Below are positions 52,584 to 55,500 of a DNA stretch of 64,000 bases, in pieces (position 1 is the stretch's first letter; each line of letters starts with the position of its first letter). The translations under genes and the position numbers were made by a program. The notes under the pieces are model-generated. The model made no database searches and was not told where the DNA came from. It saw nothing but the letters and a program-made list of their open reading frames with translations. The DNA lies in assembly GCA_009746045.1 (NCBI GenBank), contig RPFO01000175.1:2975634-3039633 (forward strand), given 5' to 3'. Origin of the DNA: Mesostigma viride (taxonomy: Eukaryota > Streptophyta > Mesostigmatophyceae > Mesostigmatales > Mesostigmataceae).

Positions 52584-55500
52584 TCACGGCACCTGCTGCC
52601 CCGTGAGGTCCCGCAGGCACGTGTCCAGCATCTGTTCCAGCACCAGGTGGTTGCGGATCATCGCCACTTTGGGCCACGTGTGCAGCTGGCCGCGCCACAG
52701 GATACGCGCCATGGCCTCCCGGTCCGGGTCGCTCAGCAGGCGGAAGTAGTCAGCCAGGCGCAGGCGGGGGACGATCGTCACGTTGCCGTACATTTTCTGG
52801 GAAAGGATTAGGGGGGGGGGGGGGGGGGGGGCAGGGGAATAAGCAGGAGAAACTTGTTATCTTGTACGTGTGTATGCGTGCGTGTGTGTGTGTGCATGCA
52901 TACGTGTGTATTCATTGTGTGTGTGTGTGTGTGTGAGAGAGAGAGAGAGAGAGAGAGAGGGAGAGAGAGAGAGAGAGAGAGAGAGAGAGAGAGAGAGAGA
53001 GAGAGAGAGAGAGAGAGAGAGAGAGAGAGAGAGAGAGAGAGAGAGAGGGAGGGAGGGAGGGAGGGAGGGAGGGAGGGAGGGAGGGAGGAGGGAGGGAGGG
53101 AGGAGGAGGGAGGGAGGGAGGGAGGGAGGGAGGGAGGGAGGGAGGGAGGGAGGGAGGGAGGGAGGAGGGAGGGAGGGAGGGAGGGAGGGAGGGAGGTGGG
53201 GAGGGAGGGAGGGAGGTGGGGGGGGGAGGGGAAGAAAGGCTCCCAGTGTAGGGGAGAAGGAAGGCAAGTTCAGAGGATATGGGCTTGTGAACTGTTGCCA
53301 ACGACTTGCCACCGCTCAGCCAACCATTCCCAGTTCCTCCCCTCTGCTTTCCTTCCCCCCTACCCCCCCGCTCCCCACCATGCTGTTTTCAGGCAGCACA
53401 ACAAGGAAGTCGATACCATTAAACCTGATGCTAAGCGCAATGTTCAAAAGCGCAGGAAGCAGCTGCAATTTTCAAAACGTAATCGCAATTGACACCGTTG
53501 CTTAGTCAGGACACTTGTGGCAATGTGCATATATATATTCTGCTAGTATATATGCTATTATCATTCTCAATAAATACATATATACTGCTAGTACATATAT
53601 GTAATATGCTTTTATCATTCTCAATAAATATACATGCTATTCAAGACATCCCCCCTGTTATGTTCGCAATTGCCGGACCGCCGACAAATGCCCACACGCC
53701 CAGTGTGGCAGAGTCCCTGGCAGCGAGCGTCGTACCTGGAGGAACACCTGGCTCCAGTCCTGCTGGAACAGCGAGGGCATCAAGTCCTGTGGTCCACCAC
53801 ACGACCGACCACAGGAAAACAGGGCAGCCCGAACCAGCAAACAGCGACAATACACCACACCGTGCGTGAGTCAGATGCCTGTAACCACCGTTCGCCACTG
53901 ACAGGAGGGGAAATAAAGGGCCTCATCACAGAGACGTGAAAAAACCATGCACGATGGCAATCGAGGGTGGGCAAGGCTGCTGGTCCACGGACACGTGACC
54001 CCCCCCCACACAGGGAGGGGACAAAACACGGCCTATCCTTCTCTATCATGGGCATAAACCAAGATCAGAAACCAAGGCATGGATTGCCCGGGCATTCTTT
54101 TCCTTTTTGATCGATTGTTTTTTCTTCACCTTTCCACCTGGGCCTCAGTTCCCCCTAGTAAAAAACATTTCTGTCTCGCCAGCATGGCCCCCATGGACTC
54201 CATTCCTATCCCCCCCCAACCCCATACCCACCGCCGAGGATAACCACGCATCCCTGACTGACTCCATTAACATCTCCAAACAAAGGCGAAACCAAGATGG
54301 GAACCAGCGACACACAACAAGAGCAGAGATATGAGAGGATAGCGATGCCCAAGTCGGCTGCACGCCAGAAACGCTCAACGTAGTGTCAGGAGACAGTTCG
54401 GCGGTTTGACCCGTGGTGGAAAGTGGTGAATACCACGGGTCAAACCTTCCTTTCCTCCAGGTGGGTCTGAAGGAATGCCTGTGCAGGTGCATACCAGTTC
54501 CGCCACGAAGCACACCCACTTCTTGATCCCCTTAATTAAAACCAAACATGGTGCGTCTAGCAGCCTGCAACTAACAAGGCATCGGCAACGAGCGTAGCGG
54601 GCTCCTACCAGCTCCCCCACGAGGCGCAGCCACTTCTTCATCTCCAGCTTGAGCAGCGACTCGAGCGCCGCACTGATGAAGCCGCCACGCAGGCCACCAA
54701 AGCGCCGCGTGGTCGGCTGACCGGACGACCCCCGGCTTTCGTAGAAGAAGGGCGCGATGTGCGGGTTGGTCTGCGCACATAAACAAAACAAATAAAGAAA
54801 GGCTAATCGTGAATAGCTTGCATGCCGCCAAATACCACCCACAATTAGAAGAATGGCGCCATGTGTGGTTTGGTCTGCAGGTATAGACATGATTATTTCA
54901 GACATAATAAAAGAGAGACAGGCTGTAGAGACGTATAGACATGATAATTAAAGAGGGATCCTGGTGAATAGCATGCCACTATAACGCCACCCTCTTCTAG
55001 TAAAAGGGCACGATGTGCGGGTTTGTCTGCGGGCATAGAAATAAGTAACGAGGGCTTAGTTAATTAATTAAGTAAAAAGGGCTCACGATGAACAGCTTGC
55101 ATGCAACCACACCACCATCTTCGGGTAGAAGAAGGCGTGACGTGCGGGTGCTCTGCATGGAAATGAGAGAGCTGCAATTTAAACAAGGCAAACATTTTGA
55201 TAAACAGAAGGTTCAAGGATACTTTGAATAAGGAAGCTGCAAAGGGCTCGTGAAAAAAGATGCGCCCACCAAAAGACAACTCTTCTAGGGCTGCCATGTG
55301 TGGGTTATAACCCCCCCTCCCCCACCCGCCTGGCTCATCATCCCGTAATTCACATTAAAAGCTCTGAGAGCACACAGCTGCACTCGATTAACAAACCAAC
55401 TAGCTATCTACCCACCCGCCTGGCTCATCATCCAACGGTCCACATTCAGAACCTCCAAAGACCTGGTACTGCACTCAATCAGCACATCAACTAGCTAACC

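Follow-up and report, generated by a model that had tools for sequence, protein, structure and literature searches.

Copies of exon edges in the introns of Mesostigma viride are best explained by tandem duplication across splice junctions

Tandem duplication has been reviewed as a source of introns (PMC3443670), and several related cases are described. In potato, one gene, RdRp, gained a new spliced intron through a duplication across an intron-exon boundary (PMC4974935); in the [D] stwintrons of Lipomyces, a donor duplication of 4-7 nt is tied to a nested intron (PMC7138796); and intron sliding together with exonic tandem duplication is described from Drosophila (PMC2891723). The published assembly of M. 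viride comprises 441.8 Mb with a mean intron of 1142 bp (PMC6947507). Introns may also carry minisatellites, whose arrays grow via tandem duplication. To our knowledge, the lengthening of introns without transposons is only thinly documented.

The copies of exon edges analyzed here are related to all of these systems. As in the intron gain treated in the review (PMC3443670), gene segments with splice signals are duplicated in tandem, but no new intron results; the duplicated unit takes in intron sequence and adds length to an intron that already exists. Compared with the potato RdRp case (PMC4974935), the copies stay within an existing intron and occur at about one quarter of the sampled edges. 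A donor duplication that places a second 5' splice site beside the first is shared with the [D] stwintrons (PMC7138796), whereas the stretches duplicated here run to tens of nucleotides and take in both exon and intron. The growth of arrays is shared with intron minisatellites, but here each repeat unit takes in the end of a coding exon together with a splice site, and the functional junction is the first unit of the array. Among CC-licensed PMC papers no report was found of widespread exon-edge duplication lengthening existing introns. The initial annotation of this DNA had known of no described system with such regularity, which holds for scale within those papers, but a single intron-exon boundary duplication, that of potato RdRp, is in print (PMC4974935). 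What is new is the scale and the donor-bearing arrays, and the phenomenon is not new in kind.

The window, that is, the whole analyzed stretch of 64,000 nucleotides, lies in a genome of 439.9 Mb and contains a lipase gene of eight coding exons. The translation of the joined exons is identical to P0001 (eukprot jgi/Mesvir1, 658 aa) followed by a stop, all seven introns have GT-AG borders, and the protein carries the domains DUF3336 and patatin (a lipase family). The gene and the edge copies in its introns are listed below; fractions are matching over aligned positions, and a raised dot marks a splice junction.

52584..59556, minus strand: DUF3336 + patatin lipase gene, 8 coding exons, exact translation to P0001
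59556-59244, 58691-58158, 57827-57619, 56543-56409, 55950-55591, 54770-54609, 53786-53736, 52796-52584 (with stop), minus strand: lipase exons in order
54771..55590, minus strand: intron 5, 820 nt, with exon 5 3' edge copies in its donor half and exon 6 5' edge copies in its acceptor half
54846..54878, minus strand: exon 6 5' edge copy 1, AG kept (CAG), 29/33
54995..55037, minus strand: exon 6 5' edge copy 2, AG kept (CAG), partly still in frame, 37/44
55125..55156, minus strand: exon 6 5' edge copy 3, AG kept (CAG), 29/34
55287..55306, minus strand: exon 6 5' edge copy 4, weak, stopping short of the AG, 17/20
55309..55370, minus strand: exon 5 3' edge copy, CAG·GC for CAG·GT, 50/64
55411..55460, minus strand: exon 5 3' edge copy, CAG·GC for CAG·GT, 38/51
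54492..54531, minus strand: exon 6 3' edge copy in intron 6, CTG·GTATGC, GT kept, 33/40
56749..56762, minus strand: exon 4 5' edge copy in intron 3, AG changed to GG, 14/14
56658..56674, minus strand: exon 4 5' edge copy in intron 3, 15/17
58052..58070, minus strand: partial exon 3 5' edge copy in intron 2, 16/19, 0/300 shuffles
56973..57597, minus strand: 21-bp minisatellite over most of the central part of intron 3, units resembling the exon 3 end + donor (low complexity)

All seven copies that the initial annotation had reported in the lipase gene are present with the splice-site states given there, the fourth exon 6 5' edge copy being weak; some had been said to read still in frame, and one was found to do so, with residues 517-522 exact at 55029-55012. 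The copies of the exon 4 and exon 3 5' edges and the 21-bp array of intron 3 come in addition to those seven. When 40-nt edges were aligned to their own introns, five of the 14 lipase edges (5' edges of exons 3, 4 and 6, 3' edges of exons 5 and 6) scored above all 300 dinucleotide shuffles of the intron, and the other nine showed no such echo by this shuffle test. With 30-nt windows at a score of 22, the adjoining intron was likewise reached at 5/14 edges, against none of 98 edge/non-adjoining-intron pairs and none of 504 exon windows at least 40 nt from an edge. The exon 3 end with its donor, GAGGAG·GTGGGTGGG, has 16 exact copies within lipase intron 3, which is weak evidence in a low-complexity sequence.

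The spacers between the copies in lipase intron 5 are also homologous. On the acceptor side, their alignment scores were reached by 5/500 (S0-S1), 0/500 (S0-S2) and 4/500 (S1-S2) shuffles, and on the donor side by 0/500; only the outermost spacer S3 has no detectable kinship to the other three (244, 359 and 65 of 500 shuffles). This homology (S3 excepted) supports the proposal that the edges were duplicated outward in tandem. Introner elements (mobile introns) would leave related intron sequence at many unrelated loci. For lipase intron 5, the one intron compared with its genome in this respect, no such distribution was seen among the matches listed, for which the best candidates were scored: beside the intron itself, the other 74 all lie in a G-rich stretch (query 49-113).

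Whether the pattern goes beyond the lipase was assessed in an exactly resolved set of the lipase and two dynein heavy chain genes (G and F), comprising 63 introns and 126 exon edges. For dyneins G and F, a single splice pair was resolved at all 56 covered introns, and their spliced translations are contained without any change in the predicted proteins. At a score of at least 24, echoes were found at 30/126 edges (lipase 4/14, G 6/28, F 20/84), on the donor side at 19/63 and on the acceptor side at 11/63, a difference that is not significant. For windows at most 5 nt from an edge and a score of at least 22, the adjoining intron was matched in 5/14, 6/28 and 19/84 cases in lipase, dynein G and dynein F, respectively; the same score was reached by 0/162, 0/427 and 18/1020 windows 80-160 nt from the edge and, beyond 160 nt, by 16/2538 in dynein G and 11/1033 in dynein F. 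Five further dynein genes, with approximate exons and with exons near masked sequence left out, gave matches at a score of 24 for 12/84 windows at 0-5 nt, 8/668 at 40-80 nt and 9/2548 beyond 80 nt. Two chaperonin genes, also with approximate exons, gave 8/48 windows at 0-10 nt, 6/48 at 10-20 nt, 0/96 at 20-40 nt and 0/488 beyond 40 nt, involving 5/24 edges. The comparisons proposed in the initial annotation, with random exon interiors and with other genes of the genome, were thus made in a sample of genes, and the pattern was not refuted: interiors seldom match, and the edge copies recur in dyneins and chaperonins. The pattern is general in the ten sampled genes, which belong to three protein families of one genome.

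The match rate peaks at the junction itself, at 30% and 32% of the windows flanking donors and 20% and 17% of those flanking acceptors, one value for each side. Going into the exon from donors, it falls to 1.6% in the 75-nt bin and 0 in the 105-nt bin; from acceptors, it is down to 1.1% at 45 nt, with 0 in the deeper bins. Intron bins past the junction bins have direct-repeat partners in 6-21% of windows, against 0-9% in the inverted-repeat control; within 1.5 kb, 533 direct and 20 inverted repeats, mostly arrays, were counted in 280 kb. Hence the statement that these introns are built from exon boundaries went too far: the units also hold intron, and the introns carry internal repeats at 6-21% per bin. 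A few items, such as lipase copy 4 and the array of the exon 3 3' edge, are weak or of low complexity and could by themselves be short GC-rich matches arising through chance or composition in long introns, but the pattern as a whole is contradicted by the shuffles, the exon interiors, the inverted control and the non-adjoining introns. Chance, whose probability we regard as practically nil, was rejected on the shuffles, the exon-interior windows and the non-adjoining introns.

The placement of the copies is polar. With 40-nt edges of exons of at least 90 nt, the adjoining intron was matched in 28/124 cases, the intron on the other side of the exon in 0/124, and other introns of the same gene in 16/3882. 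The outward regularity needs no special system, since tandem duplication that spares the exon can put a 5'-edge copy upstream only and a 3'-edge copy downstream only. Intron gain of the type of Rogers, in which introns arise when an exonic AGGT segment is duplicated in tandem, shares with our cases the tandem duplication and the AG·GT motifs, but it predicts the 5' edge of the downstream exon at the intron start and the 3' edge of the upstream exon at the intron end, with no flanking intron. Here the copies keep the junction in its original context, 3'-edge copies do not occur across the exon, and the intron count is unchanged; the placement of the copies and their absence across the exon led us to reject this origin, which is extremely unlikely. 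The lack of intron-side homology in many old copies led us to consider templated insertion without tandem arrangement as a general mechanism as well; the same absence across the exon and the young head-to-tail arrays disfavour it.

These arrays are the youngest cases, and in them and in lipase intron 5 the tandem arrangement is clear. Intron 4 of the CCT-gamma gene holds an array (L032:4182-4668) with a 48-bp unit in 10.1 copies at 97% identity (TRF), which starts inside the exon: the exon ending in RTLTKLRAK is followed by nine in-register intronic units, each of 27 nt of exon end (26/27 identical to the exon), the donor AAG·GT and 21 nt of intron. The intron ends after 826 nt with a CAG acceptor, to which the next exon, HAADECSTFGINGHTG..., is joined; of these 826 nucleotides, 456 belong to the array. 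Joined to each other, the two flanking exons align to the solved TCP-1 gamma over all 82 residues with no gap at the junction; therefore the array is intronic and non-coding. In dynein F intron 23, a 51-bp triplication with units CAG·GTATGG starts 6 nt inside the exon. Head-to-tail units of at least 10 bp, as in minisatellites, were found in CCT-gamma intron 4, dynein F intron 23 and lipase intron 3, and most echoes form no arrays now.

Further repeats were observed aside from the edges. The window contains a 51-bp array (26411-27448, 20 copies, 97%), which has a unit length divisible by three and may be coding, and two 30-bp arrays (15518-16589, 36 copies, 98%; 21471-21981, 17 copies, 96%). 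An array of about 6 kb (L012:1-6043) with a 25-bp period, taken from self-match spacing, and 99.7% identity lies upstream of dynein-like exons. At 49808-50146 of the window, an ORF looks by eye like the decayed end of a non-LTR reverse transcriptase.

All nine intronic CCT-gamma copies retain AAG·GT (in units AAG·GTGAGC) and thus amount to nine spare donors. Among the junction-reaching copies of the exactly resolved genes, GT is kept in 14/25 and AG in 7/12, so that decoy splice sites are indeed left behind, as had been suggested. Such strong donors and acceptors in several copies, together with a CCT-gamma unit of 48 nt that is a multiple of three, might indicate alternative or decoy sites under selection that tune splicing. 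We consider this very unlikely: the splice dinucleotides are gone in 11/25 donor and 5/12 acceptor copies, and the CCT-gamma array is too young for conservation to count. In addition, the copies lack coding constraint. Mismatches between exon and copy number 30/311, 33/310 and 52/310 at the three codon positions, so that third positions hold 52 of 115, which by our own estimate is about the share that a copy free of constraint should show against an exon under constraint. In dynein G, the echo of exon 6 (L026:6129-6180, GKTETTKDLAFALA) differs from the exon at AAG/TTT, ATT/TTG and synonymous sites, and in look is closer to a paralogous dynein P-loop than to random decay.

The young arrays and the spacers of lipase intron 5 imply that tandem duplication crossing the junction accounts for the origin, the adjacency and the polarity of the copies, and the most probable explanation of the whole pattern is ordinary duplication of this kind, retained since splicing continues at the site on the exon side. 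Tandem duplication would affect segments straddling a junction, from tens to about 200 bp in length, and at times give multi-copy arrays. A donor-spanning event would produce exon x·y x·y intron, in which the first x·y is the working site and the second becomes wholly intronic; an acceptor-spanning duplication would be the mirror image. With the original junction intact and nearest to the exon, the mature mRNA would be unchanged and the duplication nearly neutral, while selection would remove duplications within exons and tolerate those within introns. The copies would then decay, the intron-derived parts diverging on both sides and the exon-derived part remaining recognizable longest, since selection on the protein keeps the master copy of that part unchanged. 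The copies lie inside existing introns, and the exon-proximal sites are those used in the annotated proteins. We infer that the duplications are close to neutral and that the decoys are rarely used, and edge copies may contribute substantially to intron length. The suggestion that they lengthen introns agrees with the exactly resolved set, in which introns with an echo have a median of 657 nt (n=27) against 450 nt in those without (n=36; p=0.0017), longer introns also being larger targets for echoes.

Echoes of the dyneins and the lipase have a median period of 145 nt, with 22/30 within 79-182 nt; this cluster of edge-to-copy distances is about the size of a nucleosome. At acceptors, the exon part of an echo spans 13-41 nt, and at donors 22-60 nt, where the query itself ended at 60; exon and copy are identical at 816/931 ungapped sites (0.88), with 11 gap events against 115 substitutions. 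The intron side was judged against shuffles, because long extensions of alignments at low identity are partly spurious; homology was found there in 14/36 copies (11/23 first copies) and was not detected at p<0.05 in the other 22. In dynein F intron 26, for instance, a 51/55 copy lacks the intron side. Of the junction-spanning pairs of at least 86% identity (22 pairs at 18 junctions), 17/22 run no more than 8 nt beyond the splice site into the intron. These pairs stand to intron-internal pairs as 22 to 26, not counting 60 spaced pairs from lipase intron 3.

Neutral tandem duplication was simulated as single events in random introns, the range of unit lengths being a guess. A model of uniform ages was rejected, as it predicts intron-side homology of 64-76%, early stops of 9-29% and a ratio of junction to internal pairs of 0.11-0.21; a high-indel model was rejected as well, as it predicts 0.41-1.17 gaps per substitution against the 11 to 115 observed. 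When most duplications are of 0.15-0.30 substitutions per site, the ratio rises to 0.64-1.17, with exon identity of 0.84-0.86 (observed 0.88), gaps per substitution of 0.09-0.14 and intron-side homology of 0.41-0.71 (observed 0.39; first copies 0.48), but early stops are under-predicted (0.41-0.47 against 0.77; p=0.004 with pairs treated as independent). A still older range (0.25-0.40) gives early stops of 0.80 (8/10 cases), but the ratio of 2.5 is too high and the intron-side homology of 0.12 too low. Old ages fit better and reproduce several of the statistics, but no single age range matches every one.

The early stops, the copies without intron-side homology and the ratio of junction to internal pairs, far above the uniform-age simulations, speak for copying or refreshing specific to edges, in which templated insertion or exon-to-copy gene conversion acts on the edge with its splice consensus and spares the surrounding intron. 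However, the youngest cases are clean head-to-tail duplications with intron included, no edge was copied to the intron across its exon, and neutral decay would reach the observed ratio if most duplications are old; we therefore hold edge-specific copying to be unlikely. Similarly doubtful is the claim that a junction-directed process repeatedly copies about 15-55 nt of exon edge with splice consensus into the intron, exon edges being preferred sources of duplication. If it were true, the introns would have grown largely in this way and would hold a stock of decayed edges and decoy sites as a source for new exons and splice variants. Against a model of tandem duplication alone, the old copies end at the splice site more often than the fitting neutral simulations give.

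Taken together, the observation of the initial annotation is true and unexpectedly general, and it is best explained by ordinary tandem duplications that cross splice junctions, in a duplication-prone genome. For annotators it is a warning that the adjoining intron may contain nearly perfect duplicates of an exon end here. The ten near-identical donors of CCT-gamma intron 4 pose the question of how the spliceosome chooses among them, and the copies offer a measure of how fast decoy splice sites are disarmed. Because a constrained exon is an undecayed reference for copies of differing age, the source of the added intron DNA is directly readable, and the span from a 97%-identical 10-copy array to barely recognizable echoes offers a dating of intron growth. 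Edge duplication looks like one of the ways in which the introns of M. viride grew.
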